64,000 bases of DNA from Fibrobacter sp. UWB11 (GTDB lineage Bacteria > Fibrobacterota > Fibrobacteria > Fibrobacterales > Fibrobacteraceae), in contig NZ_FSRT01000001.1 of assembly GCF_900143015.1 (NCBI RefSeq), positions 1,054,001 to 1,118,000 of the forward strand, read 5' to 3'. A program made the translations under genes and the position numbers. Below, piece after piece: positions 4,741 through 22,572 of this stretch (its first letter is position 1; the number at the start of each line of letters is the position of its first letter). The notes under the pieces are model-generated. The model did not search any database, was not told where the DNA came from, and saw only the letters and a program-made list of their open reading frames with translations.

Positions 4741-4781
4741 TAAAAGAATCCTTTATAAAATTCCGAAGAAAAGATAGCAAA

Positions 4782-4806
4782 TTAGGGATTAGGGATTAGG
4801 CGCTAG
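4782..4806. repeat. Degenerate ATTAGGG tandem repeat
   Basis: Three near-copies of ATTAGGG run into CGCTAGGGG in the gap upstream of the GH2 gene. Read on the other strand the unit is CCCTAAT. Similar CTAAT-rich short tandems sit in the gaps near 14291 and 60777. Confidence 0.5.
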
Positions 4807-4854
4807 GGGGTGCGAAAGCGTTCAAAAGAGGCGTCTTTACTTCAGAAAATAGTA

Positions 4855-4888
4855 ACAAAAAGAACCGTTCTAGAAAAGAACGATTCTC
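4855..4888 (-). terminator. Terminator after the 224-residue secreted protein
   Basis: On the minus strand a GAATCGTTCT / AGAACGGTTC hairpin is followed by five T. It lies about 30 nt beyond the stop codon at 4914. Confidence 0.65.
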
Positions 4889-4913
4889 GTAAGTTTTTTA
4901 TAAATGAGTCGGA

Positions 4914-5588
4914 TCAATAAACTATTTTTCGCGCTGTATTGTCGCTTTGTTTTTTCCCGATTGCATCTCGGTTGCGCTTTTTTATAACGGCTCCTTTGCG
5001 CATTCGTGTGCTTTTTATGGATGAAGTGTTTGGATATACAAAAAACTCACCTCTAATCTCTTCAGAACTGTCATATCTGCAATCGAATTCAGACCAGATG
5101 TATTGGTAAAGTGCTGAGTATCCTTTTATAAAAATTGAATCAGAGGGCTTAATTTGGAAACTCAATGGAACAAAAATCCACGAAGAATCTAAGGCTTTGG
5201 TCATAGGGGATTCTTTTGAAGATGTTGCTTTAAAGTTGCGTAAAAGAATTCGATGTACGAAAGTTAAAGGCTTGTCATCGGCAATAGAAAGAATCGCTCG
5301 TTTGTAAGAAATTTTTCCATTTTGTAAAACGACTTCTATAATTGCTGAGTCTACTACGGTATCAACAATTCCCGAAATATCGACCGTATGGCTAAGGCTT
5401 GGTTCGTTACTGACATTTGTCGTGTCTGTAGGCTGAGTTTGTAGCTGCATCCCTTTGACATAATCAATTGTATCATGAGTGATAAGGGGGGAACTGTAAT
5501 AACAGTCGTGATGACGAGTCATTGGATCTTGTCCAACTTGAGCAAAACTCAAGGTGACTGTAAATAAAATGATAAACAAAGAACGCAT
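4914..5588 (-). CDS. Secreted protein of unknown function (224 aa)
   Basis: I do not recognise this gene. The first 16 residues (MRSLFIILFTVTLSFA) form a signal peptide, so the product should be exported. The rest is a hydrophilic, serine- and threonine-rich sequence with alternating beta-type stretches, ending in a basic KKRNRDAIGKKQ tail. The gene is AT-rich with many ATA, TTA and AAA codons, unlike hisI or proA. It is divergently transcribed from the CLCA-like gene with about 90 bp between the starts. Both may have arrived together and may share regulation. Confidence 0.6.
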   Translation of the reverse strand: MRSLFIILFTVTLSFAQVGQDPMTRHHDCYYSSPLITHDTIDYVKGMQLQTQPTDTTNVSNEPSLSHTVDISGIVDTVVDSAIIEVVLQNGKISYKRAILSIADDKPLTFVHRILLRNFKATSSKESPMTKALDSSWIFVPLSFQIKPSDSIFIKGYSALYQYIWSEFDCRYDSSEEIRGEFFVYPNTSSIKSTRMRKGAVIKKRNRDAIGKKQSDNTARKIVY

Positions 5589-5678
5589 ATAATCTAAATA
5601 TAATTTTTTTTTGAAAATAAATGAAAAAAAATTTTTGTTTGCAAAATGTATAGGAAATATAATAAATTTGTTCCTATT

Positions 5679-8600: not shown

Positions 8601-9635
8601 TCTGTTGATGTGAATCAGGGGAATAACAATGGCTATGTTACTATCCCGCTTGCTGCAGAATATGCCTTGCCTGGTTATATTATTAGAGTGATTGGTTCTA
8701 AGTCAAAAGGAGCAAATTATGATTTGCTTTTGCTTGAAAGAAGTTATGCTGAATTTGCTGTTGGTAGGTTTGAATTTGAGGGCGATTGGCATTCTGTAGA
8801 AACGACGGTATCCTTAGATTCTAAGACGAAAAGTGAAGGTATGAAAAGTTTGGTAACTCCTGCAGGTTGGAAGATTGTTGAAAGTAGAAACATATCTTCA
8901 TCGGATTTTGAATTAGTTGGTGAAAAAATGAGTTTGGACGTTTATGTCCCGCTTCATACGCAAAATGTTTATTGGGTTGGCAGCGTTGAATTGTGGATGT
9001 CTGTGCCGTCATCCAATAAGCGGATCCAAATTGGTCAATTGCAGGATATTCAACCCTATTTTGGAAATTGGAAGTCTTATGTGTTTGATGTGCCTGCGCA
9101 GGCTCTTGAACTGCTTGCTGAACCTCATTCAGATATACGTTTTCAAATTGTTTTGAATTCTGCGGATTATATTTGGATAGACAATCTTCGTTTTGCAGGA
9201 ACGATGGCTCCAAATCCGGTTAATAAGTGGATTCCTCTTTGCCCTGAAGATAACGGATGCAATTCAACAAAACCCTTACGATTGCATGTTAATGAGTCTA
9301 TTAGTGTTGTTGCGGAAGGTGACTTGTGGGTTGAAATTGTTGGTTTCCCGAATGATTGGACTCCCGCAAAGGTACATGTTGGCGTTTCTGCTGAGGATGG
9401 TGCTCCGCTGACTGGATATATGACTTTTGAAAGTGAAACGATACCGTTCACTGGCTGGTATTCTGAAAACTCTTTTGATTTCGTTCCAGGTCAGCGTTAT
9501 TTGCTAAAACTATATAATCTTGGTGGTCGTCCGTATAGATTGAGTGCTTGGACAACGGGAGAATTGTTGGGGGTTGCTTCGTTGATTAATCAGAAAAATG
9601 GCTACTATAACATGAATTTTTTGTGCTATAATTGA
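5679..9635 (+). CDS. Secreted CLCA-like protein: zinc metalloprotease domain plus von Willebrand A domain
   Basis: A 1318-residue protein from the ATG at 5679, which begins a good signal peptide (MKYFIFILFVFSAAFAAES). An ATG 33 nt upstream would put charged residues before it. The N-terminal domain has the motif HETMHFRYGIDDDY (H149, E150, H153, D160). This matches the HExxHxRWGVxDEY zinc motif of animal CLCA proteins, which cleave themselves. A vWA domain follows (about 463-650) with a complete MIDAS: DRSSS at D466, GATALFD, and SDG at D592. Next comes the TLRDDG...DGIY motif seen in the CLCA/choice-of-anchor beta-sandwich, then further beta domains including a discoidin/CBM-like region near 1040-1180. 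It is AT-rich compared with its neighbours. The role may be extracellular matrix or surface adhesion with proteolysis; the substrate is unknown. Confidence 0.8.
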   Translation: MKYFIFILFVFSAAFAAESPFSRIRITAYDSDGIPSEEVHDVSICLERNPTAEEKRKYEEVIGFYADGMYEATNGANFIGNVIIYSGSKNCSNTDIDWNKSGRWPGASGSFYQGWGGIGVSDIWFDGYNHYPKMDDEKERFNFGITLVHETMHFRYGIDDDYSKTSSENFGVRLMADPAKEVITVSLLNLDDESIYRFKTWLLTTFSNGAPVYFFPIKDGRVPEGLDLGPVPLGREKDFGHFVTDYFIIDQVDASLLDNGIYSFKLKKSNGERVVMKDSGLDAWGFDRPDNVAVAHSLMNYQYDVATSSICDPYNIQWQWANLSTSFNINPSSPLSICCRDADGNLLSAWDILTRNPKTNLVNGVYPGDDFRYWYRSLIKKKPKETDVFRTKSFLMNYDEYTGKTLAGYAEWVRDETCGNEKKYDLPYMKVELAGRSPSEYRTETHKHLNIQWLDESKMETIVLIDRSSSMSKVFKDHLGNIIKKNEGGTMKKIDMARMAAKFVSQGFVDLSWTPSASDETKSNVSVGVYAFNKNLFDVYAIQKSPNSDDIDMKIDGVTTKGATALFDAVYTVLDYFSDNPASKKMLYVISDGLDVSSTHTKEEVIRRYRNKDVAIHTFAYGNDADVELLSSMAAETNGSFYEDDARFPLKITDVVSTALSSFPDNEQLMSASVAANQTSAEVYVPSRTKYAKIYGSYKGTAISTPVEIISKSGTVLPMLIKNNASLNENYFVAEVDSITLANLSQSVIKVKNKLVDEIIDLRIIATNEYHEHSLNVKMTPMGSFEWPVQKSFVASVRKNESLLADVAFFGKLVDPDGVAQTFTLRDDGRNGDFRAGDGIYFATLPPINKNGPYQWEIFASNKNGRAHTTRVGSSLPASYPFVERIDYTPFELVRNGQFVVRGCCKDEPSEKLIQLPPETRVNAFLQSGSDEDRFEIIGTQVGKSYSLRLSSMDLSSFDKIQVYSAVNKSVPVYSVDVNQGNNNGYVTIPLAAEYALPGYIIRVIGSKSKGANYDLLLLERSYAEFAVGRFEFEGDWHSVETTVSLDSKTKSEGMKSLVTPAGWKIVESRNISSSDFELVGEKMSLDVYVPLHTQNVYWVGSVELWMSVPSSNKRIQIGQLQDIQPYFGNWKSYVFDVPAQALELLAEPHSDIRFQIVLNSADYIWIDNLRFAGTMAPNPVNKWIPLCPEDNGCNSTKPLRLHVNESISVVAEGDLWVEIVGFPNDWTPAKVHVGVSAEDGAPLTGYMTFESETIPFTGWYSENSFDFVPGQRYLLKLYNLGGRPYRLSAWTTGELLGVASLINQKNGYYNMNFLCYN

Positions 9636-9637
9636 TA

Positions 9638-9676
9638 AAATAGGCTTTTAGGGGCTTTTTTAGCCTTTTTTACTCG
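9638..9676 (+). terminator. Possible terminator after the CLCA-like gene
   Basis: AATAGGCT and AGCCTTTTTT can pair around a T-rich loop and are followed by a run of T. The hairpin is weak, but its place directly after the stop codon fits. Confidence 0.45.
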
Positions 9677-9694
9677 TTTTTACCAACAATCCCC

Positions 9695-9725
9695 TTTGAT
9701 TTTCTGTGCACTATTACTAAATTTG
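9695..9725 (+). promoter_or_regulatory. Bacteroidota-type promoter of rplU-rpmA
   Basis: TTTG at 9695-9698 is followed, after exactly 19 nt, by TAAATTTG at 9718-9725. This fits the TTTG-N19-21-TAnnTTTG consensus of Bacteroidota sigma-A promoters. The rplU ATG is 33 nt downstream and has an AAGGA ribosome site. Confidence 0.6.
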
Positions 9726-9758
9726 TGGTCCCAATAGCAACCTAAAAAGGATTACAAA

Positions 9759-10244
9759 ATGTATTCTATTGTTGAAGCAGGTGGTTTCCAGTATAAAGTC
9801 GAGCTCGGCAAGGCCTACAAGCTCCCGTTGATCGACGCCGCTGTTGGTTCTGAACTGGAGCTCAAGTCCGTCCTTCTTTTCTCCGGAAAAGAAGTGCAAG
9901 TCGGCACCCCTGTCCTGAATGATGCTTCTGTCAAGGTCGAAATTCTCGCCCATGGCAAGGAAGACACGATCATCGTGTTCAAGAAGAAGCGTCGTACTCG
10001 TTACGAACGTCGTAACGGTCATCGTCAGGGCTATACCGAGGTGCTCGTCACGGAACTCCGCTCTGGCGCTGAATCTGCAGTCGTAGACCCTCAAGTTATT
10101 ACCCGCAACCGCGCTCGCGTGGCTGCCCTTGCTAAGCAGAAGGCTCAGAACAAGCCGCTCACTCGCAAGGAAAAAATCGCTCAGGGACTTCCGAAGCCGG
10201 CTAAGGTCAAGAAGAACTCTTTGCGTAAGGCTAAGGAGGCTTAA
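9759..10244 (+). CDS. rplU: 50S ribosomal protein L21
   Basis: Large-subunit ribosomal protein that binds 23S rRNA. Residues 1-103 follow the L21 fold, starting MYSIVEAGGFQYKVE and including KKKRRTRYERRNGHRQGYTE. The protein is 161 residues long, about 55 more than the usual 103. The extra C-terminal tail is very basic (KAQNKPLTRKEKIAQG and KKNSLRKAKEA) and is probably a disordered rRNA-binding extension. The gene lies 3 nt before rpmA, the conserved rplU-rpmA pair. Confidence 0.97.
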   Translation: MYSIVEAGGFQYKVELGKAYKLPLIDAAVGSELELKSVLLFSGKEVQVGTPVLNDASVKVEILAHGKEDTIIVFKKKRRTRYERRNGHRQGYTEVLVTELRSGAESAVVDPQVITRNRARVAALAKQKAQNKPLTRKEKIAQGLPKPAKVKKNSLRKAKEA

Positions 10245-10247
10245 TCC

Positions 10248-10508
10248 ATGGCACATAAGAAAGGTCAAGGTTCAGTACGTAACGGCCGCGACAGTAACGC
10301 CAAGTATCTTGGTGTTAAGAAGTATGCGGGCGAAACCGTCAAGGCTGGCAACATCATCGTTCGTCAGCGCGGTTCTCACTTCCACAAGGGCAACAATGTC
10401 GGTATGGGCAAGGACTTTACCTTGTTCTCCCTCATTGATGGCAAGGTGAAGTTCGAACGCCTCGATGCAAAGCGCCAGAAGGTCTCTGTCTATTCTGAAG
10501 AAGCCTAA
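10248..10508 (+). CDS. rpmA: 50S ribosomal protein L27
   Basis: Large-subunit protein near the peptidyl-transferase centre. The 86-residue sequence starts [20 protein letters not shown], typical of L27 without the cleaved N-terminal extension of Firmicutes. It is co-transcribed with rplU and followed by a strong terminator. Confidence 0.97.
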
Positions 10509-10530
10509 TAACTTTGGTTAGCTTTTAAAA

Positions 10531-10559
10531 GCCGGACGCGAGAGCGCCCGGTTTTTTTT
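10531..10559 (+). terminator. Terminator of rplU-rpmA
   Basis: A CCGGaCGC / GCGcCCGG stem with a GAGA loop is followed by eight T, starting 22 nt after the rpmA stop. Confidence 0.9.
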
Positions 10560-10793
10560 ATAAAACAAACTTTATTCTCCGATGATTGTGCTGAATCCTA
10601 CGAGGGCGCGTTTGCTCGGATCCATCTCGATGCTATTTTACCGGGGAATAATCCGGTCGCAATCCACAAATTCCGTGGGGAATCTGCGGTCGTGAGCGTC
10701 GGGCAGAAGATTTGGGAAGTTACAGTTGTCGCCATCAAGAACGATCGCGTTATTTTGCGCGATGAAATTGGAAAGTTTGAGCTGAAGTACTAG
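10560..10793 (+). pseudogene. Possible 5'-truncated gene remnant
   Basis: An open frame without any ATG, GTG or TTG start runs from the rpmA terminator to a TAG at 10793. It encodes about 77 residues that look like a real C-terminus, for example PGNNPVAIHKFRGESAVVSV and KNDRVILRDEIGKFELKY. The pattern (short beta strands, V-I-L-R-D-E) recalls small beta domains of pilus- or secretion-assembly proteins, but I cannot assign a family. It may be the tail of a decayed gene; chance coding is the alternative. Confidence 0.35.
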
Positions 10794-10835
10794 TTTTATT
10801 ATTTGCGTTTTTTCTACATTGTTAGTGTGAATTCT

Positions 10836-13205
10836 ATGCGCTTATTAAAACTTTATTTCTTATCTCTTGTCGCTGTATTTCTCTTCGCCTGCTCCGATGA
10901 CGATGAAGGTCCGGAATACATGTTCGACAGGGAAATTTCGGAATATTCTGTTCTTTACGATTGTGAAACAGGTGGAGCTGATAGCAATTCCTGTTTTAAA
11001 ATCCGTTACCGCTATCCATATCGTCTTGACGATTACGCGGGGCTGTGCCTTTGGTTCGATACGACAATTGTTAACGACACTTCTAAGGCGGTAAGCGATA
11101 AGCAGATTCGGCTTGCTCACGATACCTCAAATGAGGAAACTTATTTCCACGAGTACAAGAAGTCGGGCCGTTATTACGACACAATCGATGTGTCTAAAAT
11201 GGTTGCGCCGTTTATCAAAGACGGTTATGATTCCCTCCAGGTGGCTTTGTTCAGCGAATATACGGATGGGGGCGACCCAGGTGCTGTACAGCGTTTATTT
11301 TTGCATTTTAAGGACAATTTTGACCCTGCGATTGTTGTGCCTGATGATTCTGTTTGGTCCAATGGAGTGTTGCTTTCATGGGATCGCCCCACAGACCAGA
11401 CGAGTTTCCATATGATTGGTGCTGGTTCGGGCAAAATTTACGGATATAATGTCGTTATTTACGCTATTGACCGCCCGGACGAAGATATTCGCGATTTGAA
11501 GGTTTCTGTTCAATCTCCTGCAGGCACTGATTATACGGGTGGCACGATTTACAAGCGCAATGCTCAGATTGTTCATACCAATGATTCCGTGTATGTTAAG
11601 GAACTCGAACGAAACGATAAGGACAAAAATTATCTTCGCCTTGTTGTTTTTGATGGTCAAGGGTATGATGCCTCTAATCCGGTGAAAAACCATTTCCGCA
11701 TGATTATCGAAGGGCTCCGCACGAGGTCCAATACCGATAACTATGAATACAAGGTGGGGTTCTCGTCTTGGGATATCGTTGGCAACCGCAGTGGTTCTCA
11801 AGGGGACGTTCAGGTCGATCCTAAAAACTGGAAAGGGATTATGACGACGGATTCCATTGCTCCGTTAATGCCGAGCAAGATTTTTGTCGAGGAAGATTCT
11901 CTGTTCCCGGGATATGCAAAGTTGGATAGCAATAACCGAGTCCGTATTTATTGGAATCGAAGTGTTGACCCGATTACGTTCAAGCATGGTATTACAATTG
12001 ATTCGGAACTTGTTATTCCGAAGAACTGCCATGTTCACGAATGTTATGAAAAAGTCTCGAAATACATTGTCGAGTATTACAATAAAGTAGACAAGTCTTG
12101 GAAGCGTAATGCTGAAGCCGAGGATCGCTTTGGGGCGCACTATATCAAAGAAGATGATGGAACGTTTAAATTGGATGTCTTGGATACAGGCTCGTTTGTA
12201 GGCGACACAATCCGCAGGGTTGCTCCTGGCGATACGATTATTCTGCGAATTTTGGCTGTAGATAATTCCGGCTATAAATCTGATGCTTTGCTGGATACGG
12301 TGTTTGTTTCGCCGGGTAAGCTCGGTTATGAACTGAAATGCCCAGTTGGCTTTGTGGCTGTTTCTACATCCGACACCACGTCGTTCTGCATGGAGCGATT
12401 AGAACATCAAGATGCAGATGGAAAATTTGTGACAAACGTATTGCATTCCGAAGCTGTTGCTGCATGTGAAGCTATTTCTGCAAGTGGCTTTGAAGTTTCT
12501 CTTTGCCGTGAACGCGATTGGGAACTGGCTTGCTTGTCGGGTGGCTCGCTTTCGTACGGCGTGATTGAAGAAGATGATACCGATGCTTCTGATTATCTCT
12601 TCCGCGTGTGCAATGTGAGCACGAATGATTCTACGATTGCTGCCGATATTGCTAAGCGCGATGCGGGTTGCATGAACCCGATGGGCGTGAGGGATTTACC
12701 GGGCCAGTACCAAGAGTGGGTGATGGGTCGATCCGAAGATACCATTGCCGTTTTGAAGGGCTCTAGCTACAAGATTTTTGAAGGCCTCGATCGCGAGTCT
12801 ATTGCATACTGCACCAACCGTGCCTTCCCGTTCTATACGCGTCCGGCGTACACGCAAGATACGGTGTATCTCTACCGTGAAGGTACGCAGGTCGATACGG
12901 TTTATGCCGCCGATACGACGAGAACGTTGTACAAAATATTGACAAAGAGCGACTTCAAGGATACGCTCCAGTTCTATGATGTCGTTGATTCCAAGGGTAA
13001 GGTTATTGGAACGGATTACTCGCTTTATTCCGAATACCAAAAAGGTGGCAAGACTTGGCTTGACTCTTTAGCGAATGGTCTTACGTACAAACCGTCTCGC
13101 AAGGAACCGGTGTTCCTGACAGGCGAAAAGCGCTATTACCGAGAAGCTTCGTCATTCTACAAATCTCCGACCATTGGCTTCCGCTGCTGCGCATATAAAA
13201 AATAG
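10836..13205 (+). CDS. Outer lipoprotein with formylglycine-generating-enzyme-like (SUMF1) domain
   Basis: The start is taken at the ATG 10836, which gives the lipoprotein signal MRLLKLYFLSLVAVFLFAC with lipobox LFAC and C19; the frame is open for 11 codons upstream. The protein is about 789 residues. An acidic stretch (SDDDEGPEY) follows the lipid cysteine. Beta-sandwich domains probably span about 50-500. The C-terminal third resembles the SUMF1/FGE fold: CPVGFVAV...FCMERLE, an EAVAACEA segment, CRERDWELACLSGG, a GQYQEWVMG motif and a final IGFRCCAYKK. Fibrobacter genomes carry a large paralogous set of such lipoproteins (from memory). The FGE-like domain is likely a binding module; enzymatic activity is not shown. 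Confidence 0.75.
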   Translation: MRLLKLYFLSLVAVFLFACSDDDEGPEYMFDREISEYSVLYDCETGGADSNSCFKIRYRYPYRLDDYAGLCLWFDTTIVNDTSKAVSDKQIRLAHDTSNEETYFHEYKKSGRYYDTIDVSKMVAPFIKDGYDSLQVALFSEYTDGGDPGAVQRLFLHFKDNFDPAIVVPDDSVWSNGVLLSWDRPTDQTSFHMIGAGSGKIYGYNVVIYAIDRPDEDIRDLKVSVQSPAGTDYTGGTIYKRNAQIVHTNDSVYVKELERNDKDKNYLRLVVFDGQGYDASNPVKNHFRMIIEGLRTRSNTDNYEYKVGFSSWDIVGNRSGSQGDVQVDPKNWKGIMTTDSIAPLMPSKIFVEEDSLFPGYAKLDSNNRVRIYWNRSVDPITFKHGITIDSELVIPKNCHVHECYEKVSKYIVEYYNKVDKSWKRNAEAEDRFGAHYIKEDDGTFKLDVLDTGSFVGDTIRRVAPGDTIILRILAVDNSGYKSDALLDTVFVSPGKLGYELKCPVGFVAVSTSDTTSFCMERLEHQDADGKFVTNVLHSEAVAACEAISASGFEVSLCRERDWELACLSGGSLSYGVIEEDDTDASDYLFRVCNVSTNDSTIAADIAKRDAGCMNPMGVRDLPGQYQEWVMGRSEDTIAVLKGSSYKIFEGLDRESIAYCTNRAFPFYTRPAYTQDTVYLYREGTQVDTVYAADTTRTLYKILTKSDFKDTLQFYDVVDSKGKVIGTDYSLYSEYQKGGKTWLDSLANGLTYKPSRKEPVFLTGEKRYYREASSFYKSPTIGFRCCAYKK

Positions 13206-13237
13206 AGCGCGGCCTTTGGCGCAGTTCTATTTACAAT

Positions 13238-13265
13238 GTCATCCCGGCTTTATGCCGGGATCGCC
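13238..13265 (+). repeat. Palindromic GTCATCCCGG-type dispersed repeat
   Basis: GTCATCCCGGC-TTTAT-GCCGGGATCGCC forms a 7-bp stem. It belongs to the second dispersed class, GTCA(T/C)-stem-loop-stem-ATC(T/G)CC, seen also at 20926, 22542, 22620, 43808, 43892 and 56047. Confidence 0.75.
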
Positions 13266-13274
13266 TTTTAAAAA

Positions 13275-14069
13275 ATGAAAGAAATGAATACAGAAGACTT
13301 TTTGAATGTCGCAAAGGACCTTGCTCTTAAAGCGGGCAACCTTTGCCTTGAACTCCAGAACAACCTTGGCGATGTGCGCTACAAATCCGTCAAAGACGTT
13401 GTGACCATTGCCGATGTCAGCAGTGAAAAGCTTATTGTCGAAGGGCTTCGTGCGGCATTTCCGACGCACTCCATCCGCACCGAAGAAGCTGGCATTATCG
13501 AAGGCTCGGACCCGCGCTACCGTTGGATTATCGACCCCGTCGACGGAACGGTGAATTTTAGCCGCGGCATTCCGCTGTGGGGAATTTCGATTGCCTTGCA
13601 TTTTGAAGGCAAACCGCTGGTGGCGGTTGTTAATTTGCCCAAACTCGGTGAACTCTACACCGCAGCAAAAGGCATGGGTGCGTTCATGAATAACAAACAA
13701 ATTCACGTGAGCCGCGAATCTAATGCAACGCATGCCATTGTTTCGAATGGAGACTTTAACGTTGGTGATGCTGCAAAAATTAATGCGCAGAATTCGCACA
13801 ACTTTGCCCGCGAAGCCGAAACGTTCGAACGCGTGAAGTGCTTGGGCTCTGCTGTGATTGAAGGCTGCTTCACGGCCTGCGGCCGCATTGATTGCTTTGT
13901 AATGACCATGAGCTATCCGTGGGACATTGCGGCTATAGCGCTCCTCGTCGAAGAAGCGGGTGGCAAGTCCACGCACATCGATGGCACTCCCATGCAGTTC
14001 GTCGACGCCGAACAGGTTATATTTACCAACGGCCTTTTACACGACACCCTCGTGAAAACTTTGCAATAG
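13275..14069 (+). CDS. Inositol monophosphatase family protein
   Basis: Mg2+-dependent phosphatase of the IMPase/SuhB/CysQ group, 264 residues. Visible motifs are IRTEEAG (metal-binding E, about residue 75), WIIDPVDGTVNF (about 86-97) and PWDIAAIALLVEEAGG near the C-terminus. The substrate may be inositol-1-phosphate, another sugar phosphate or PAP; the sequence does not decide. Two ATG codons (MKEM) are available and the first is used. It is flanked by a palindromic repeat and appears monocistronic. Confidence 0.9.
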   Translation: MKEMNTEDFLNVAKDLALKAGNLCLELQNNLGDVRYKSVKDVVTIADVSSEKLIVEGLRAAFPTHSIRTEEAGIIEGSDPRYRWIIDPVDGTVNFSRGIPLWGISIALHFEGKPLVAVVNLPKLGELYTAAKGMGAFMNNKQIHVSRESNATHAIVSNGDFNVGDAAKINAQNSHNFAREAETFERVKCLGSAVIEGCFTACGRIDCFVMTMSYPWDIAAIALLVEEAGGKSTHIDGTPMQFVDAEQVIFTNGLLHDTLVKTLQ

Positions 14070-14232
14070 GCGCTAGCCGAACCTTTACTGGATTTGACGA
14101 AAAACATTCGTCATCCTGGAGGCACGATGTGCCGATAAGACAACCTCAAAAGGCGAGCGTTGCAGCTATGCTTGCATAGATATAACCGAGCCTAAGAGGT
14201 TGGGGCTTGCCCCATCCATAATTTCTCGTATA

Positions 14233-14290: not shown

Positions 14291-14332
14291 CATTGGCCAA
14301 TGACTATTGACCAATGACTAATAACTAATTAC
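14291..14332. repeat. CTAAT-rich degenerate tandem repeat
   Basis: Near-repeats of CCAATGACTA and of ACTAATAACTAAT fill the end of the gap and run up to the stop of the carboxyltransferase gene. A similar string occurs near 60777. Confidence 0.45.
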
Positions 14333-15870
14333 AGCGGAATATTTCCGTGCTTCTTCCAAAGCACAGCCTTCTTCTTGTTCTTCAAGTTTTCGAACGCAGA
14401 AACAAGGCGGTCGCGAACGCTCTTCGGTTCAATGACTTCGTCAATGAATCCGTTGCCAGCGGCAATGTACGGGTTCAAGTACTTTTCTTCGTATTCGTTG
14501 ATGTACTGTTCGCGGAGCTTGGCCGGTTCTGCAGATGCGGCGATTTCCTTTCTGCGGAGAATGTCAACAGCGCCTTCAGCACCCATCACGGCGATTTGTG
14601 CAATCGGGAGGGCGAACACGCAGTCTGCACCGAGGTTCTTGCTGTTCATGGCGATGTATGCGCCACCGTATGCCTTGCGGAGGATGAGGGTCACGCGCGG
14701 CACAGTTGCTTCGGCGTATGCAAAGAGGAGCTTTGCGCCGTGGCGGATAATGCCGTTGTGTTCCTGCTTCGTACCCGGCATGTAACCCGGAACGTCTTCG
14801 AGCGTAAGGATAGGAATGTTGAAGCTGTCGCAGAAGCGGACAAAGCGTGCGGCCTTATCGCTAGCGTCTACGTCCAAAGAACCGGCGAGGTACTTCGGCT
14901 GGTTAGCGACAACGCCAATCACGTTACCGTCGAGGCGGATAAAGCCGATGACGACGTTCTTTGCAAATTCCGGCTGGATTTCGAGGAAGGAATCCTTGTC
15001 GGCGAAGCAGTTGAGCACGTCGCGAACATCATAAGCGCGCTTAAAGTTGTCCGGAATGATTTCTTCGATGTCGGCGGACTTGTCTACGATTGTACCGATC
15101 TGGGCGACAGACTTGTCTGTGTTGCTCTGCGGGAGGTACTTGAGCAAGTTACGCACGCCTTCGAGGCATTCCTTGTCGTCCTTGTACACAAAATGTGCAA
15201 CGCCGGACTTGGAAGAATGAACGCCTGCGCCACCGAGCTGGTCCGGAGTCACGACTTCTGCAGTCACAGCTTTCACGACAGCCGGGCCCGTGATGAACAT
15301 CTGGCTCGTCTTTTCGGTCATGAAGATAAAGTCTGTAATAGCCGGAGAGTAGCAAGCACCACCTGCGCACGGTCCGAGAATCACGGAAATCTGCGGAATC
15401 ACGCCGCTTGCCCAAGTGTTACGGGCAAAAATGCCACTGTAACCGTCGAGGGAGCTAACGCCTTCTTCGATACGTGCGCCACCGCCGTCGTTAATGCTGA
15501 TAAACGGCACCATGGAATCAAGGGCGAGGTCCATCACGTGGCAAATCTTCTTGGCGTGTGCGGAACCGAGAGAACCGCCGCTCACCGTGAAGTCCTGTGA
15601 GCAGGCGTAAACCGGGCGGCCATTGATCTTGCCGTAACCCGTCACGACACCGTCACCGTAAATGCGCTTGGATTCCGGGAGCTCGATGCTCTGGGAAAGG
15701 CGCATGGCGCCGATTTCCTTGAACGTGCCCTTGTCAAAAAGGATTTCAAGGCGTTCACGAGCGGTGAGCTTGCCCTGGGAGTGCTGTTTTTCTACACGAG
15801 CGGCGCCGCCACCGGCCTGTGCCTTGGCGTTGCGTTCGCTCAACTTTTCTAAATACGATTTATCCCACAT
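14329..15870 (-). CDS. Acyl-CoA carboxylase carboxyltransferase subunit (propionyl/acetyl-CoA type)
   Basis: Transfers a carboxyl group between carboxybiotin and a short acyl-CoA. The 513-residue protein has two crotonase-like halves. ARIEEGVSSLDGYSGIF marks the first half, and GAKLLFAYAEATVPRVTLI with GGAYIAMNS marks the second. This is the PccB/MmdA family. It could form propionyl-CoA carboxylase, the methylmalonyl-CoA decarboxylase catalytic subunit or a malonyl-CoA-forming enzyme. No biotin-carrier or biotin-carboxylase gene is in the window. An AGGAA site precedes the ATG. It follows fabD by 20 nt in the same operon, which suggests a link with acyl-chain synthesis. Confidence 0.88.
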   Translation of the reverse strand: MWDKSYLEKLSERNAKAQAGGGAARVEKQHSQGKLTARERLEILFDKGTFKEIGAMRLSQSIELPESKRIYGDGVVTGYGKINGRPVYACSQDFTVSGGSLGSAHAKKICHVMDLALDSMVPFISINDGGGARIEEGVSSLDGYSGIFARNTWASGVIPQISVILGPCAGGACYSPAITDFIFMTEKTSQMFITGPAVVKAVTAEVVTPDQLGGAGVHSSKSGVAHFVYKDDKECLEGVRNLLKYLPQSNTDKSVAQIGTIVDKSADIEEIIPDNFKRAYDVRDVLNCFADKDSFLEIQPEFAKNVVIGFIRLDGNVIGVVANQPKYLAGSLDVDASDKAARFVRFCDSFNIPILTLEDVPGYMPGTKQEHNGIIRHGAKLLFAYAEATVPRVTLILRKAYGGAYIAMNSKNLGADCVFALPIAQIAVMGAEGAVDILRRKEIAASAEPAKLREQYINEYEEKYLNPYIAAGNGFIDEVIEPKSVRDRLVSAFENLKNKKKAVLWKKHGNIPL

Positions 15871-15890: not shown

Positions 15891-16739
15891 TTACTTTTGA
15901 ATGCGCTTGATAAGGTTGGTAAGGACTTCGCCGGGGCCAAGTTCCTTAAATTCGGTGGCACCGTCTGCAATCATGTTCTTGACCGTCTGTGTCCAACGGA
16001 CGGGGGAGGTGAGCTGAGTGAGCAGGTTAGCCTTAATTTCGTTCGGATCCGTGTGCGGCTTGGCATCTACGTTCTGGTAGACCGGGCAGACCGGAGTCGA
16101 AAATTCAGTTTCTTCGATAGCCTTTGCAAGTTCTGCACGGGCGCTTTCCATGAGCGGGGAGTGGAATGCACCACCGACCTGCAGCGGAACGACGCGCTTC
16201 ACCTTGCCAGTGAGGTAGGCGGCAACTTCGTCAATACCAGCCTTTTCGCCAGAGATAACGACCTGTCCCGGGCTATTGAAGTTTGCCGGAACAACTGCGG
16301 CGTCCTTGACCTGTGCGCAAGCATCTTCGACGAGTTCATCAGAACCGCCGAGAACAGCGGCCATTGTGCCCGGACGGAGTTCGCAAGCCTTCTGCATGGC
16401 TTCGGCACGCTTTGCAACGAGCTTGAGGCCTGCTTCGAACGTAATGGCGCCCGTAGCGGTAAGTGCGGAGAATTCGCCGAGCGAGTGCCCAGCGGCCATA
16501 TCCGGCTTGCCACCTTGGACCTTAGCCATAGCAACAGAGAGCAGGAACACTGCTGGCTGCGTGACTTTCGTCTGCTTGAGGTCTTCTGCGGTGCCGTTGA
16601 ACATTACATCCGTAATGTTGAAGCCGAGAATTTCGTTTGCCTTTAAGAACATCGACTTTACGTCGGCGTTCGACTCGAATAAATCTTTGCCCATTCCTGG
16701 GAACTGAGAGCCCTGACCGGGAAATACGTATGAAATCAT
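15891..16739 (-). CDS. fabD: Malonyl-CoA:ACP transacylase
   Basis: Loads malonyl units onto acyl carrier protein. The 282-residue protein starts MISYVFPGQGSQFPGMG. The nucleophile is S86 in GHSLGEFSAL, and the catalytic histidine is H193 in GGAFHSPLM. It is transcribed away from the ACP/ketosynthase operon, with about 240 bp between the two starts. There is no Shine-Dalgarno sequence. A TAAATTTG box ends 4 nt before the ATG, which suggests a leaderless mRNA. Confidence 0.95.
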   Translation of the reverse strand: MISYVFPGQGSQFPGMGKDLFESNADVKSMFLKANEILGFNITDVMFNGTAEDLKQTKVTQPAVFLLSVAMAKVQGGKPDMAAGHSLGEFSALTATGAITFEAGLKLVAKRAEAMQKACELRPGTMAAVLGGSDELVEDACAQVKDAAVVPANFNSPGQVVISGEKAGIDEVAAYLTGKVKRVVPLQVGGAFHSPLMESARAELAKAIEETEFSTPVCPVYQNVDAKPHTDPNEIKANLLTQLTSPVRWTQTVKNMIADGATEFKELGPGEVLTNLIKRIQK

Positions 16740-16980: not shown

Positions 16981-17226
16981 ATGGCTAACGAAGAAATCAA
17001 GAGCAAACTCAAGGCATTCTTTATGTCCGATCTCGGTGTAGACGGCGATGTCCTGAATTACGATACTCCGCTTTTCGGCGAAGAAATCGGTCTTGACTCC
17101 GTGGACTCCCTTGAAATCATCTCCTTCGTCGATGATAACTTCGGCGTTTCCATGACTGGCGTTGCTAAGGAAAACTTCCAGAGCATCGATACTATCGCTG
17201 CATTCATTGAAAAGAACAAGGCTTAA
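16981..17226 (+). CDS. Acyl carrier protein
   Basis: An 81-residue acidic four-helix carrier. The phosphopantetheine site is S40 in GLDSVDSLEI. This is not the DSLDTVEL form of standard AcpP. GLDSVD-type motifs are common in carrier proteins of specialised clusters such as aryl-polyene and polyketide loci. It is the first gene of an operon with the KS fusion, FabG, FabZ, an acyltransferase and a patatin. It may still be the main ACP of this organism; no other copy is in the window. Confidence 0.9.
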   Translation: MANEEIKSKLKAFFMSDLGVDGDVLNYDTPLFGEEIGLDSVDSLEIISFVDDNFGVSMTGVAKENFQSIDTIAAFIEKNKA

Positions 17227-17262
17227 TCAAGCCTTTTTATTTGAGTATTGTTTGGAATATCT

Positions 17263-19659
17263 ATGACATCTAATAATTGTCGCTGTGTTGTTTCGGGCCT
17301 TGGCGTTATTTGCGCTGTAGGCAACAATGTTGAAGAAACCTGGAAAAATGCCCTGAATTCCGTCTCCGGTATTCACAAGACCACTTCTCTCGATACCAAG
17401 AACTGCTATGCAGACTTAGCTGCCGAAGTGAACTGTGATACACTCGATGAGATTGAATGTCCGGACGAAAAGGACCGCGCCTCCAAGCTCTGCATCAAGG
17501 CTGCAAAAGAAGCCCTCAATGATGCCGGTCTTGGTGACTTTGCTGATAGTAGCCGTGTAAGCGTCATTATCGGTAGTTGCGTGGGTGGTGTCCTCAGCAT
17601 CGAAAAATACCATTGCGGCGGTAAGGATGCCAACGAAATTCCGAAAATGCCCATTGCTGCAATTGCTTCCCAAGTGGCTGAATCCTGCCATGCGGGTGGC
17701 ATTGTGACAAACGTGGGTAACGCTTGTGCTGCCGGTACGATTTCCATTGCTCTTGCTTGCGACCTTATTCGCGCAGGTAAAGCCGATGTCGTTATCGCTG
17801 GTGGTTCAGACTCCTTTGCTTCTGTTCCGTATTCTGGCTTCCTTTCTCTCCATGCCTTGGACGAAAATGGTTGCTCTCCATTCAATCATTGCAACGGCAT
17901 CACCCTCGGTGAAGGCGCCGGCATTGTGATTGTTGAATCTTTGGAACATGCCGAAAAGCGTAACGCTAAGCGTTACTGCGAAATTCTCGGCGCTGGCGTC
18001 ACAAGCGATGCTCACCACATTACGGCCCCGCGCGAAGATGGCATCTGCCTCCTCGAAGCGATGGACCGCGCTGTCAAGAATTCTGGTATCAAGAAAACGG
18101 ACATCGGTTACCTCAATGCTCATGGTACGGGTACCGGCAAGAACGACAATGCCGAAATCAATGCATTCCACAAGTTCTTTGACGAAGAAAATCCAACCTT
18201 GAGTGTTAGTTCGACCAAGGTGATGACCGGTCACTGCCTCGGTGCCGCGGGTGCAATCGAAGCTGTGTTCAGCATCAAGGCTCTTACGACGAATACCGTT
18301 CTCCCGACGCTCCACTACACTGCCGAAGATTCCGAAGCCCTCAAGGCTAAGGTCGGTCAGATGGACTATGTGCAGAACACTCCGCGTGCAAAAGAACTCG
18401 AATGTGTCATGAGCAACAACGTTGCTTTCGGTGGCACGAACGCAAGTATCGTGTTCAGCAAGAAGCCGGGTGACGTGCAAAGCCAGGTCGCTAAGGATAA
18501 GAAAATCGCTGTAACAGGTGTAGGCATTGTAAGCCCGCTTGGCAACAGCAAAGAAGCATTCCTTGAATCGGTCAAGAACGGCAAGCTCCCGGAATCCGCT
18601 TCCATTTGCTCGACCGTCACGAACGACGATTACAAGGAACTCGGCATCAAGATGGCTTTCTACCGCAAGCTTGATAATCTGGGACAGCTCCAGACTGTTT
18701 CCGGCATGCGCGCCCTCAAGGATGCAAACCTCACAGTCACCGAAGACAACGCAAAACAGATTGGTATCATCGTGGGTACTAGCGAAGGCGGTCTCGGTGC
18801 TACTTATGATTTCCAGGAACTCATCACTGAAGCCGGCAACGCTGGCGGTAGTGCCTTCAAGTTCCCGCACACAGTTTATAATGCCGCTGGTGGTTACCTC
18901 TCGATCCTTTCTGGAATCAAGGGCTACGGCGTCACCATCACGACGGGCCCGCTCTCGGGTCTCGATAGCATCGGCTACTCCATGAACGTTATTCATGACG
19001 GTCAGGAACAGGTCATGATGGCTACGGGTACGGACGAAAATCTCCCGATTATCACGGAATTCTGCCAGAAGCTGAACGTCGCTGCAGATAAGGTTGTGGA
19101 ACCGTATTCCAACTCCAACGGCTTTGTCGTGGGTGATGGCTCTGTTTCGATTATCATCGAAAACGAAGACTATGCCAAGGCTCGCGGTGCTAAGGTTTAC
19201 TGCTACGCTCTCGGTTACGGTAACGGCCGCAAGAACGTGAAGTTTGGCCACATCTCCGGTTCCGACGAAGTTCTCGATATCGCCATTAACGCAGCCCTCA
19301 AGGACGCGGGCGTTTCTGCAAACGAAATTGACGCTGTCTGCGGTTTTGCTAACGGTCTCAAGAAACTTGACGATATTGAAAAGGCTGCATACGCACGCGT
19401 GTTTGGAGATAAGCTTGCTAACCTCCCGCTCTTCCAGGTGAAGGAACGCGTGGGTGAAGGCCGTGCCGCTTCTGCCGCACTTGCTGCAGCCGAAGCTGCT
19501 CTTATGCTCGGTGGCGAACTTACCGAAGAAAACGCCTACTTTGTTGCAAATGACGGTAGCGTTTCCAAGAAGAAGGTCGCAACATCTGGCTTCAAGAAAA
19601 TTTTGGTGACTTCCTTTGCTACGGGCGGTTCTTACAACGCTGTAGTTCTCGGAAAATAA
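17263..19659 (+). CDS. Tandem ketosynthase: active KS fused to a catalytically dead KS (chain-length-factor-like)
   Basis: The ATG at 17263 is preferred over a TTG 15 nt upstream. The 798-residue protein is two FabF-type thiolase-fold domains in one chain. The N-terminal half (about 1-405) keeps the triad C155 (NACAAGT), H287 (NAHGTGTG) and H324 (MTGHCLGAAG). The C-terminal half starts near 412 (KIAVTGVGIVSPLG) and has lost all three residues. The cysteine site reads TTGPLSG, the first histidine loop reads CGFANGLKKLD and the second reads RVGEGRAA. This is the arrangement of KS-alpha and KS-beta (chain-length factor) of type II polyketide synthases, here as one polypeptide. It would condense malonyl-ACP with an acyl chain and may set chain length. 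The product is unknown. Confidence 0.88.
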   Translation: MTSNNCRCVVSGLGVICAVGNNVEETWKNALNSVSGIHKTTSLDTKNCYADLAAEVNCDTLDEIECPDEKDRASKLCIKAAKEALNDAGLGDFADSSRVSVIIGSCVGGVLSIEKYHCGGKDANEIPKMPIAAIASQVAESCHAGGIVTNVGNACAAGTISIALACDLIRAGKADVVIAGGSDSFASVPYSGFLSLHALDENGCSPFNHCNGITLGEGAGIVIVESLEHAEKRNAKRYCEILGAGVTSDAHHITAPREDGICLLEAMDRAVKNSGIKKTDIGYLNAHGTGTGKNDNAEINAFHKFFDEENPTLSVSSTKVMTGHCLGAAGAIEAVFSIKALTTNTVLPTLHYTAEDSEALKAKVGQMDYVQNTPRAKELECVMSNNVAFGGTNASIVFSKKPGDVQSQVAKDKKIAVTGVGIVSPLGNSKEAFLESVKNGKLPESASICSTVTNDDYKELGIKMAFYRKLDNLGQLQTVSGMRALKDANLTVTEDNAKQIGIIVGTSEGGLGATYDFQELITEAGNAGGSAFKFPHTVYNAAGGYLSILSGIKGYGVTITTGPLSGLDSIGYSMNVIHDGQEQVMMATGTDENLPIITEFCQKLNVAADKVVEPYSNSNGFVVGDGSVSIIIENEDYAKARGAKVYCYALGYGNGRKNVKFGHISGSDEVLDIAINAALKDAGVSANEIDAVCGFANGLKKLDDIEKAAYARVFGDKLANLPLFQVKERVGEGRAASAALAAAEAALMLGGELTEENAYFVANDGSVSKKKVATSGFKKILVTSFATGGSYNAVVLGK

Positions 19660-19680
19660 ATTTTTGAAGGAGAATTTATA

Positions 19681-20412
19681 ATGAAAGTTGCAATCGTTAC
19701 TGGTTCTTCTAAGGGGATTGGCAAGGCTTGCGCCTTGCGCCTCGCTCGTGACGGCTACACGGTCGTCGTAAACTATTCTAGCTCTGATGCTGCTGCTCAG
19801 GAAACTTTGGACCAAATCAAGTCCGAAGGTGGCGACGGCATGATTTACAAGGCTAACGTTGCCGTGCTTGCCGAAGTCAAGCAGATGGTTCGCGATGTTT
19901 TCAAGGCTTACGGCCGCATCGACGTTCTCGTGAACAATGCTGGCATCGTCCGCGATGAATACCTCCTCATGATGAACCCGGATACGCTCGATAAGTGCTT
20001 TGACTTGAATGTGAAGGGCTACTTCTACTGCGCACAGCAGGTCGCTGTCAAGATGTACAAGCAGAAGTCTGGCGTTATCATCAACATGTCTTCTGTTTCT
20101 TCTAAATTTGCTCTTGCTGGTCAGGCAGTTTACAGTGCCACGAAGGGCGCCGTGAACTCCTTTACGCAGACGCTCGCCAAGGAACTTGGCGGCTACGGCA
20201 TTCGTGTGAACGCTGTCGCTCCGGGCTTTGTTGCTACCGAAATGATCGAAGCCATTCCGGAAGAAACCCGCAAGGGCTACCTCGAAAAGGTGCCCCTCAA
20301 GCGCTTTGCTTCTGCTGACGAAGTTGCAAACGTTGTTTCTGCTCTCGCTTCTGACCAGTTCGCTTATGTGACAGGTCAGGTCATCGTATTGGATGGAGGT
20401 CTTTCCCTGTGA
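19681..20412 (+). CDS. fabG: 3-oxoacyl-ACP reductase
   Basis: NADPH-dependent short-chain dehydrogenase reducing the ketone made by the KS. The 243-residue protein has the cofactor motif TGSSKGIGKA (7-16), NNAG (85-88) and the catalytic set N110, S138, Y151, K155. It has a GGAGAA ribosome site and starts 21 nt after the KS gene. It overlaps the FabZ start, so the two are probably translationally coupled. Confidence 0.93.
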   Translation: MKVAIVTGSSKGIGKACALRLARDGYTVVVNYSSSDAAAQETLDQIKSEGGDGMIYKANVAVLAEVKQMVRDVFKAYGRIDVLVNNAGIVRDEYLLMMNPDTLDKCFDLNVKGYFYCAQQVAVKMYKQKSGVIINMSSVSSKFALAGQAVYSATKGAVNSFTQTLAKELGGYGIRVNAVAPGFVATEMIEAIPEETRKGYLEKVPLKRFASADEVANVVSALASDQFAYVTGQVIVLDGGLSL

Positions 20413-20855
20413 TGAACATTTTCCAGATCAGCGAAAAGATAGCCCAGCGTCCGCCGTTCCAGATGATTGAAAAGGTCACGGAACTTGTCCCGAACGAATC
20501 TGCTACGGGTATCAAGAACGTTTCTGTGAACGAACCGTACTTCATGGGCCACTTCCCGGGCACTCCGATTATGCCGGGCGTTCTCATTTGCGAAGCTTGC
20601 GCTCAGCTCTGCTCTCTCGTTATCGAGAAACCGGCCGGAGATCTCGAAAAGAACTTGTACGTTCTTTTGAAGATTGACGGATTCAAGTTCGTGAAGCCGG
20701 TAATTCCGGGCGACCAGCTCGAAATCACCGTCAACAAGACGAAGGGTGGTGGTGTTATCGTTGGTTTTGACTGCGTTGTCAAGGTGAACGGCAATGTCCA
20801 CGCCAAGGGCTCTCTTACGTTTACGAGCATTCCCAAGGAAAGTTTGGGCAAGTAG
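20412..20855 (+). CDS. fabZ: 3-hydroxyacyl-ACP dehydratase
   Basis: Hot-dog-fold dehydratase removing water from 3-hydroxyacyl-ACP. The 147-residue protein has the FabZ signature GHFPGTPIMPGVLICEACAQ, with catalytic H47 and E61. ATG 20412 overlaps the fabG stop by one base; a GTG at 20409 is the alternative and sits at a better distance from the GGAGG at 20395. It provides the dehydration step after FabG, so chains can be unsaturated or, with an enoyl reductase from elsewhere, saturated. Confidence 0.92.
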   Translation: MNIFQISEKIAQRPPFQMIEKVTELVPNESATGIKNVSVNEPYFMGHFPGTPIMPGVLICEACAQLCSLVIEKPAGDLEKNLYVLLKIDGFKFVKPVIPGDQLEITVNKTKGGGVIVGFDCVVKVNGNVHAKGSLTFTSIPKESLGK

Positions 20856-20925
20856 TCTAGATGGCTGAGTCATTCCGGCCGGAGCCTGCCCTGAGCGTCG
20901 TCAAAGGGCCGGCGTTGCTTGAAAT

Positions 20926-20953
20926 GTCATGCCCGACTTGTTCGGGCATCTCC
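20926..20953 (+). repeat. Palindromic GTCATGCCCG-type dispersed repeat
   Basis: GTCATGCCCGA-CTTGT-TCGGGCATCTCC forms a 7-8 bp stem. It lies inside the FAS-like operon, between fabZ and the acyltransferase. A GC-rich inverted segment (GCCCTGAGCGTCGTCAAAGGGC) precedes it at about 20887. Confidence 0.75.
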
Positions 20954-20977
20954 TAAAAGCGAAGTATTGCATTGTTG

Positions 20978-21685
20978 ATGATTGAAAAAGCGAAAAATAT
21001 AATTGCTGATTTGTTCTGGAAGTTAGTGCTCCTCGCTGTTGTTTACGGGGTGCGCACTTACTTGTTAGTAGTTTATCGTCCCAAGATGAAGTTCTTAGGG
21101 TCTGTCAAGTCTACTGATTTGAAGCAACCGATGGTGATTATCGCAAACCACACGAGTATGCTTGATCCGTTGATGGTACAGTCCTTGTTTTTCCATAAGC
21201 GCAGTATCGTTGTTGCCAAGGACCAGGTGGAAGACCCGCATTTTAGCTGGGCTTTGAAGCGTTTCAAGAACGTGATTCCTTGCGACCGTTTTAACCTCGA
21301 TACTGAATGGGCGCTCCTTGCCAAGAAGGAACTCGAAAAGGGCAATTCCGTTATTATTTTCCCGGAAGGCAAGTGCCGTTACGATGGCCTCTTGAACGAA
21401 TTCAAGACCGGTTTTGCATTCCTCGCTCGCAGTACGGGTTATCCGGTTCTTTCTCTCGGCATTGATGGTATTTATAAGATTGGTCACCGTACGCAGATTG
21501 TGGTGGACGAACCTGAAACGATTGAACGCGTGAAGGGCATTCCGTCTTCCAAGCATCTCGCCGAACGTAGCGAATATTTCCGCCAGAAGGTCTGGAACTT
21601 GAAGCAAATCGCTTTGGGACAGCAAGGGGCAATTCTCCCTGTCGCTGCTGAAACTCCGGCTGAAATTTCCGAGGAGAGCAAGTAG
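20978..21685 (+). CDS. 1-acylglycerol-3-phosphate acyltransferase-like (PlsC family)
   Basis: A 235-residue membrane-associated acyltransferase that transfers an acyl chain to a lysolipid or another hydroxyl acceptor. The catalytic motif is NHTSMLD (H58, D63) and the phosphate-binding motif is FPEGKCR (from 128). One N-terminal membrane helix spans about residues 14-33. ATG 20978 is used; two TTG codons precede it. It overlaps the patatin start by 1 nt, so they are coupled. PlsC-like genes commonly accompany specialised fatty-acid or polyene loci, where they attach the product to an outer-membrane lipid. Confidence 0.88.
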   Translation: MIEKAKNIIADLFWKLVLLAVVYGVRTYLLVVYRPKMKFLGSVKSTDLKQPMVIIANHTSMLDPLMVQSLFFHKRSIVVAKDQVEDPHFSWALKRFKNVIPCDRFNLDTEWALLAKKELEKGNSVIIFPEGKCRYDGLLNEFKTGFAFLARSTGYPVLSLGIDGIYKIGHRTQIVVDEPETIERVKGIPSSKHLAERSEYFRQKVWNLKQIALGQQGAILPVAAETPAEISEESK

Positions 21686-22533
21686 TGAAAATAGGCTTGG
21701 CTCTAGAGGGTGGGTCGCGTCAGACCATTTTTTCGGCAGGCGTTTTGGACGCTTGGCTCGATGAAGGTGTTTATTTCCCGTATATTTCGGGAGTAAGTGC
21801 TGGTTGCCATGCTGCCATGAACTTTGTCACGCGCCAGCGTGGCCGTTTCCGCTACATTATCCAGCCGACTAAAATTCAGCAGGGTAGGGATAAGGCTCAT
21901 CGCATTTTCGATGGTATCCAGAAGGAATGTTATGCGCTCCATTACAATGCGGCGTATGGCGATATGCCCTTTGATTTTCACCTGTTCTTTGGTTCGGGCG
22001 TGGAATGCGAATTTGGCTTGACGTGCTTGGAAACGGGGCGTTCGGAATTTTTCCAGGAATACATGAGCGAAAAGCGTTTGCTCGATATCGTGAATGCAAG
22101 CAGTGCGCTCCCGATGCTATTCCCGATTGCCCAGATTGACGGCAAGCATTATGCGGATGGCTGCGTGACCTCTCCGATTCCGTACCAGCGCGCCTTTGAA
22201 AAGGGCTGCGACAAGGTCGTTGTGGTCTCGACGCATTACCCCGGCGAAATTGTGACGGACTTCCGCAAGTACCGCGTGATTTTGAACCCGATGTTCAAGC
22301 GCAAGTATCCGGATTTCTTCCGTGCGCTCATGTTGCGTTACAAGCGTTACGAGAAGATGTTTTCCGAGATGGAAAAACTCGAAAAAGCAGGCAAGCTTTT
22401 GATTTTCCGCCCGGAAAAAGAAGTTTGCGACCTCTTTGCTACGGACCGTAATGAGCTTGACGAATCCTATAACATGGGGCTTGAATACGCTAAGCGTCGC
22501 ATGAACGACATCAAAACCTTCATGGAAATTTAA
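21685..22533 (+). CDS. Patatin-like phospholipase/lipid acyl hydrolase
   Basis: A 282-residue member of the patatin family close to the YjjU type. It has the glycine-rich oxyanion loop GLALEGGSRQ, the nucleophile S38 in GVSAGC and the aspartate D158 in ADGC, forming the Ser-Asp dyad. It starts with GTG overlapping the acyltransferase stop by one base. No signal peptide is seen, so it should act on the inner face of the membrane. Its pairing with the acyltransferase suggests acyl-chain exchange on phospholipid. It is the last gene of the operon. Confidence 0.88.
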   Translation: MKIGLALEGGSRQTIFSAGVLDAWLDEGVYFPYISGVSAGCHAAMNFVTRQRGRFRYIIQPTKIQQGRDKAHRIFDGIQKECYALHYNAAYGDMPFDFHLFFGSGVECEFGLTCLETGRSEFFQEYMSEKRLLDIVNASSALPMLFPIAQIDGKHYADGCVTSPIPYQRAFEKGCDKVVVVSTHYPGEIVTDFRKYRVILNPMFKRKYPDFFRALMLRYKRYEKMFSEMEKLEKAGKLLIFRPEKEVCDLFATDRNELDESYNMGLEYAKRRMNDIKTFMEI

Positions 22534-22541
22534 TTAGTAAT

Positions 22542-22572
22542 GTCACCCCGGCCACCGAGCCGGGTATTTTTT
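22542..22572 (+). terminator. Repeat-derived terminator of the lipid operon
   Basis: A GTCACCCCGG-type palindromic repeat with stem CCCGGC / GCCGGG is followed directly by a run of T. It thus doubles as a terminator 9 nt after the patatin stop. Confidence 0.7.

Follow-up and report, generated by a model that had tools for sequence, protein, structure and literature searches.

The condensing enzymes closest to the one described here pair an active ketosynthase (KS) with a catalytically dead KS-fold partner, the chain-length factor (CLF). In PfaC, the two lie in a single chain and form a pseudo-dimer (PDB entry 6riw), although PfaC itself is a part, with dehydratase (DH) domains, of the megasynthases that produce polyunsaturated fatty acids (PUFA). 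These megasynthases have tandem acyl carrier proteins (ACPs) and the enoyl reductase PfaD. Working alongside type II fatty acid synthase (FAS II), they form a second route of lipid synthesis whose product goes to phospholipid (PMC8174602). In the HR type II polyketide synthases (PKSs), exemplified by the ishigamide KS (6kxd) and the aryl-polyene ApeO-ApeC, and in the 9s5h pair, the KS and its dead partner are separate chains that work with a ketoreductase (KR), a DH, and an ACP. The FabF enzyme, in contrast, is a homodimer with no dead partner. The catalogue of type II PKSs mentions neither Fibrobacter nor Treponema (PMC10132072), and no paper describing the operon reported below was found among the open-access papers searched. 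All its parts fall into fold families already known, but neither its fused KS-CLF, nor its spread among gut phyla, nor its possible role as a sole FAS, nor the flavoprotein inherited with it was found described in the literature searched.

The window analyzed here, a 64,000-nucleotide stretch of the genome of Fibrobacter sp. UWB11, contains six co-directional open reading frames (ORFs) between positions 16981 and 22533, each of which matches its family in profile searches (Table 1). The inventory that an earlier note had read from this DNA, an ACP, a KS fused to a dead KS, FabG, FabZ, a PlsC-type acyltransferase, and a patatin, opposite fabD and an acyl-CoA carboxyltransferase, was thus recovered in full. 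The genome has five PP-binding matches, this ACP among them, and the ACPs that accompany the fused KS elsewhere are 43% to 100% identical to it. The alignment makes ATG 17263 the likely start of the fused KS, rather than TTG 17248, the mechanical ORF start. The carboxyltransferase is a probable source of malonyl-CoA. FabD also adjoins the operon in Clostridia and in locus L153, which has the same set of genes; still, FabD and the carboxyltransferase were rejected as strict operon members, as most of those Fibrobacter in which the operon has other flanks have neither gene close by.

Table 1. Features of the operon and its divergent neighbors, in window coordinates
Feature	Position	Strand	Basis
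Dedicated ACP, GLDSVD attachment motif	16981..17226	+	PF00550
KS half of the fused protein	17263..18475	+	PF00109/PF02801; Cys160/His292/His329 kept (P0002 numbering)
Dead-KS half, CLF-like	18476..19659	+	Cys/His/His replaced by Pro/Phe/Glu; fold
FabG-type 3-ketoacyl-ACP reductase	19681..20412	+	Family matches
FabZ-type 3-hydroxyacyl-ACP dehydratase	20412..20855	+	NF000582 above cutoff
PlsC-type lysophospholipid acyltransferase, NHX4D motif	20978..21685	+	PF01553
Patatin-like lipase/acyl hydrolase (GXSXG) with DUF6363	21685..22533	+	PF01734, PF19890
Strong terminator-like hairpin 3' of the patatin gene, at the operon end	22547..22564	+	Consensus match only
FabD, adjacent, divergent	15891..16739	-	TIGR00128 above cutoff
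Biotin-dependent carboxyltransferase, mmdA type	14329..15870	-	Family matches; L153 has a copy ahead of the operon (54% identical)

The fused KS is encoded by a single ORF of 798 to 803 codons with two PF00109/PF02801 stretches. In the combined alignment, the catalytic Cys/His/His residues are kept in 40 of 40 KS halves, with one residue unreadable. In the 41 second halves, the Cys is replaced by Ala, Pro, or a few other residues, the first His by Phe (in one case, Met), and the second His by Glu. The AlphaFold model (pLDDT 91.1, pTM 0.94) was built from an alignment of 43 sequences, 16 close homologs having given a pLDDT of 44.6. Its best PDB match across both halves is the PfaC didomain 6riw (TM score of 0.79 by query length, 18% identity), and the next one, FabF, covers one half only. 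At the sequence level, the KS half scores highest with FabF (B. subtilis 4ls5 and others, E value of 1.8e-75, 38 to 40% identity), the VIA-align rows spanning that half only. The replaced residues bear out that the second KS is dead, and by its modeled fold the protein is a KS-CLF didomain, here as a free-standing type II enzyme. The union of the two halves in one chain, which the earlier note had singled out, is not new, since PfaC is a solved enzyme of that kind; the variant here is a stand-alone one-chain KS-CLF, ∼800 aa long, beside discrete FabG, FabZ, and ACP.

The genome of the host (3.76 Mb in 9 contigs, 100% complete and 1% contaminated) encodes a separate set of fatty acid synthesis enzymes. 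Its ketoacyl-synthase domain matches number six: the two fused halves, two in an aryl-polyene cluster, and two FabF-like KSs. The genome-wide count proposed in the earlier note further revealed one FabV (C2:42902), a plsX-fabG-ACP-rnc cluster that provides another FabG and AcpP, and a second FabZ (C1:1488231). No match to the FabH domain PF08541 was found in the genome, FabK-type enoyl-ACP reductases (ENRs) gave only weak matches below the cutoff, and a search for FabI-type ENRs yielded five SDRs, of which those examined were FabG-like or other SDRs. FabD is the sole malonyl-CoA:ACP transacylase of the genome, so the copy beside the operon must also serve the main pathway.

The fused KS is present in 24 of 35 Fibrobacteraceae genomes (78 to 100% identity over the full length), and no other family sampled in the phylum has it. 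Among the cultured carriers is F. intestinalis ATCC 43854 (locus L121). FabH is missing in most Fibrobacteraceae and present in most of those other families. Replacement of FabH by the fused KS in Fibrobacter was considered and rejected, given that 8 of the 11 family genomes without the fused KS also lack FabH. Valerate and isobutyrate are required by F. succinogenes and end up, elongated, in its lipids; this requirement would follow from the loss of FabH if exogenous short acids serve as primers.

Could the operon nevertheless be the primary fatty acid synthase of the organism? Its elongation set is complete except for an ENR, the FabD next to it is the only one in the genome, and the fused KS is the sole KS seen in some Mollicutes and Clostridia (see below). 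However, other elongating KSs exist in this genome, along with FabV, AcpP, and the second FabZ, and close relatives live without the operon, so the fused KS is neither the sole nor the main elongating KS in Fibrobacter, and the primary role is very improbable there. Initiation by FabH, expected of a primary FAS II, is seen neither in the genome nor near the operons discussed below. The earlier note, which had tied a primary role to the absence of any other elongating KS, had favored a specialized product, and the specialized synthase is what the Fibrobacter data support; its alternative of a main fatty acid operon fails for Fibrobacter but may apply to several gut Mollicutes and Clostridia.

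The CLF half was used to scan 84,980 genomes. Of the 143 relatives that emerged, the best 80 were examined as loci. These 80 come from Fibrobacter, Treponema/Spirochaetia, Clostridia (Lachnospiraceae, Ruminococcus, Christensenella, and others), and Mollicutes (Anaeroplasma, Acholeplasmatales). Where the contig extends far enough, nearly all relatives have a fused protein of ∼790 to 820 aa that is 53 to 81% identical to the one in the window; it is accompanied by FabG and FabZ in 78 of the 80 loci and by an ACP in 76, with FabH near none of them. The same operon with ACP, FabG, and FabZ occurs in Spirochaetota, Bacillota, and Mycoplasmatota. Beyond this core, the loci of Clostridia often include FabD, AccA/AccD, and PlsX, those of Mollicutes have AccB/C/D/A, and PlsC and patatin are the additions in Treponema and Fibrobacter.

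In the KS tree, the fused KS halves and the CLF halves each form a clade with 100/100 support. Both clades are distinct from FabF (a separate clade, 98/97), from the ishigamide/9s5h-type KSs, and from the aryl-polyene KSs. The Fibrobacter proteins group beside those from rumen Treponema, and Bacillota and Mycoplasmatota belong to the same 100/100 clade. Such grouping of sequences indicates horizontal transfer of the operon, apparently as a mobile gene set.

Twenty-four carrier genomes were searched with a composite probe for FabF, FabH, FabV, FabI, FabK, and the flavoprotein described below; the FabI and FabK probe sequences were approximate, and the FabK probe worked, finding 48 to 58% identical proteins in other genomes. 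The Lachnospiraceae carriers have complete FabF/FabK/FabH sets, and the Treponema carriers have FabF and FabV, with FabH missing. In 8 of the 24 genomes (G086, G088, G089, G091, G092, G093, G101, and G102), all of them metagenome assemblies of undeclared completeness, the fused protein was the sole ketosynthase seen, its KS half running off the contig in G088. No FabH, FabI, FabK, or FabV was found in these eight, the matches listed, down to an E value of ∼1e-14, all being the fused protein itself, the adjoining FabG, or an Isf-type flavoprotein. The operon may thus be the main FAS of several gut Mollicutes and Clostridia.

Outside Fibrobacter, 34 of 43 loci have, close to the fused KS gene and in the same orientation, a gene for a flavoprotein of 240 to 265 aa from the FMN_red/Flavodoxin_2 families (PF03358/PF02525), often directly after FabZ. 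Nearly all of these operon-linked proteins have the motif CxxCxxCx7C; a flavodoxin-fold FMN reductase with such a compact Cys motif resembles the Isf/NADPH-dependent FMN reductases, and the assignment to the Isf type is a predicted one; going by the motif, the protein may bind FMN and a 4Fe-4S cluster. The matches to NCBIfam models are weak, far below the cutoff. The flavoprotein gene directly follows the patatin gene in several Fibrobacter, and in the genome studied here its homolog is unlinked (C3:93712-94461, outside the window). Across 81 genomes of the phylum, those with the flavoprotein at 78 to 100% identity are precisely the 24 with the fused KS, the other 57 showing matches of at most ∼30%, a raw count in which kinship was not corrected for. 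Adjacency in three other phyla provides independent support for the link between the flavoprotein and the operon. In one Treponema metagenome-assembled genome, no copy adjoins the operon, and a different contig carries one of the Fibrobacter type (77% identical), which may be contamination.

To our knowledge, no enoyl-ACP reductase belongs to the FMN_red/Flavodoxin_2 family, and no member of the Isf/NADPH-dependent FMN reductase family takes part in fatty acid synthesis. The Isf-type flavoprotein also fits none of the ENR classes in one review (PMC9260719). It may be a new chain-reducing enzyme, the dedicated reductase of the operon. The earlier note had argued that, with no enoyl reductase or FabH present, chains left unreduced at the enoyl step would give a polyene. 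The premise holds for the operon and, as to FabH, for the whole genome; for the enoyl reductase it does not extend to the genome, given FabV and the unlinked co-inherited flavoprotein there. The conclusion does not stand as worded: a dedicated reductase may have been overlooked, because in most other phyla the flavoprotein gene lies beside the operon and, in this one, it is present in exactly the fused-KS genomes. A saturated chain, a partly unsaturated one, and a polyene are all conceivable products.

The link to lipid acyltransferases proposed earlier is borne out by the recurrence of PlsC/patatin or PlsX with the operon across phyla. In various genomes, the operon is adjoined by PlsC/patatin, PlsX, an Mla/MCE lipid transporter, or an Omp85-like barrel. 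In some Fibrobacter, the flavoprotein gene is followed by genes for STAS-MlaE, an ABC ATPase, MlaD, and an auxiliary lipoprotein, and the ACP gene is preceded by those for an Omp85-like barrel and a thioesterase; these neighbors would be consistent with an envelope-bound lipid. Acylation specific to lipopolysaccharide was rejected, as Mollicutes and Clostridia carry the operon. In one rumen Treponema (locus L139, positions 10882-11916), the PlsC-type acyltransferase of the operon is fused to a lecithin retinol acyltransferase (LRAT)-like domain.

Taken together, the operon probably encodes a compact, horizontally spread, self-priming secondary type II acyl synthase that feeds membrane lipids and uses the flavoprotein as its own reductase, an assignment that we favor with some reserve. 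Under this scheme, the carboxyltransferase would provide malonyl-CoA, and the shared FabD would load the dedicated ACP. The one-chain KS-CLF, which in the model folds as an internal pseudo-heterodimer, would condense with its first half and shape the tunnel with its dead half. It would start chains itself: self-priming has been proposed for KS-CLF enzymes in general and is suggested here by the lack of FabH in the genome and beside any copy of the operon. Each round would include reduction by FabG and dehydration by FabZ, with the flavoprotein predicted to reduce an acyl-ACP intermediate, most likely enoyl- or polyenoyl-ACP. The PlsC-type enzyme (PlsX in Clostridia) would then place the acyl chain on a membrane lipid or glycerolipid, and the patatin could trim or remodel it. 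Against this scheme, the flavoprotein comes from a family with no enoyl-ACP reductase known to us, its NCBIfam matches are weak, it is unlinked in genomes of the window type, and its co-occurrence with the fused KS in the phylum is a raw count. FabV could act in trans as the enoyl reductase in Fibrobacter, and ordinary turnover of phospholipids could be the task of the patatin and PlsC.

A broader proposal can be made only tentatively. In what would be a new FAS architecture, the fused KS-CLF would replace both FabF and FabH, and the Isf-like flavodoxin-fold flavoprotein would replace the enoyl-ACP reductase. Several gut Mollicutes and Clostridia would have this system as their only FAS, and Treponema, Lachnospiraceae, and Fibrobacter would have received it as a secondary synthase. 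Should the synthase work as outlined here, widespread gut anaerobes would build their membrane chains by an undescribed synthase, a FabH-free one-chain KS-CLF, and the flavoprotein would be a candidate for a new class of enoyl-ACP reductase. Such a synthase would also account for how fatty acids could be made in those gut Mollicutes and Clostridia in which FabF, FabH, FabI, FabK, and FabV were not found, and could mean a new lipid class in rumen fiber degraders and a narrow target. The operon is also small and made up of discrete proteins, which suits it to work on the control that a dead KS subunit exerts over the start and the length of chains.

The main rivals of a secondary synthase with its own reductase concern the product. 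If the product is a polyene, the flavoprotein would serve in tailoring, redox protection, or something unrelated; the operon does combine KS-CLF, KR, DH, and ACP with no recognized enoyl reductase, and the fused KS has the same CAAG active-site motif as 6kxd and 9s5h_B. However, the fused KS falls outside the ishigamide/9s5h clade, and its role as the sole KS seen in eight gut Firmicutes/Mollicutes genomes means that it may make ordinary membrane chains there. Unlike the aryl-polyene cluster of the same genome, moreover, the operon has no genes for activation of aromatic or other starters, and it does have PlsC/patatin and, in places, the flavoprotein. We therefore regard the polyene as unlikely. 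Still less probable is a PUFA synthase in dissociated, type II form, whose KS-CLF, KR, DH, flavin reductase, ACP, and transacylase would be separate proteins that make a methylene-interrupted polyunsaturated chain for membrane phospholipids. It draws on the secondary role of PUFA synthases noted above, on the KS-CLF didomain being the closest fold, and on an enzyme complement that equals PfaA-D in discrete form, but the identity to 6riw is 18%, there is one FabZ with no tandem FabA-type dehydratase/isomerase and a single ACP in place of tandem ones, no PfaD-type gene occurs in the operon, and the flavoprotein, by its Pfam families, is not PfaD-like.

Kinship with the aryl-polyene clusters, a comparison that the earlier note had suggested, found no support. 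The genome has a true aryl-polyene cluster elsewhere (G000:C1, ∼1193 to 1209 kb, locus L016), with an ammonia lyase, an AMP ligase/ApeI-like protein, MMPL, ApeP, and a short KS, and its KSs belong to other clades; the ammonia lyase, AMP ligase, MMPL exporter, and two ACPs typical of such clusters are absent from the operon. Also absent are the radical SAM and CrtI-like desaturase genes of the ladderane and polyunsaturated-hydrocarbon clusters of Kuenenia and Desulfotalea.

Elsewhere in the phylum, deep-branching members do have radical SAM and CrtI-like genes beside other pairs of KSs. Two of these members (L089, positions 10357-14112, and L090, positions 5589-9380) encode proteins of ∼1,250 aa in which B12-binding and radical SAM domains (Pfam, L089) are fused to a KS-CLF; both adjoin a second KS-CLF of 760 to 777 aa, FabG, and FabD. 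Locus L080 (positions 3370-10289) encodes an unfused KS and CLF, two CrtI-like amine oxidases, and an LpxL-type acyltransferase, a set that recalls the Kuenenia and Desulfotalea clusters (PMC2649909).

Two noncoding elements were noted in the operon. Between the ACP and fused KS genes, a hairpin is followed by a short T-rich stretch (positions 17218-17235, a consensus match only), an arrangement that may allow the ACP to be made in excess. A GC-rich palindromic intergenic element (ATGCCCGACTTGTTCGGGCATCTC-like) occurs in the window in three copies, far above chance, at positions 20929-20952, 43893-43916, and 56048-56071; the first of these separates FabZ and PlsC.
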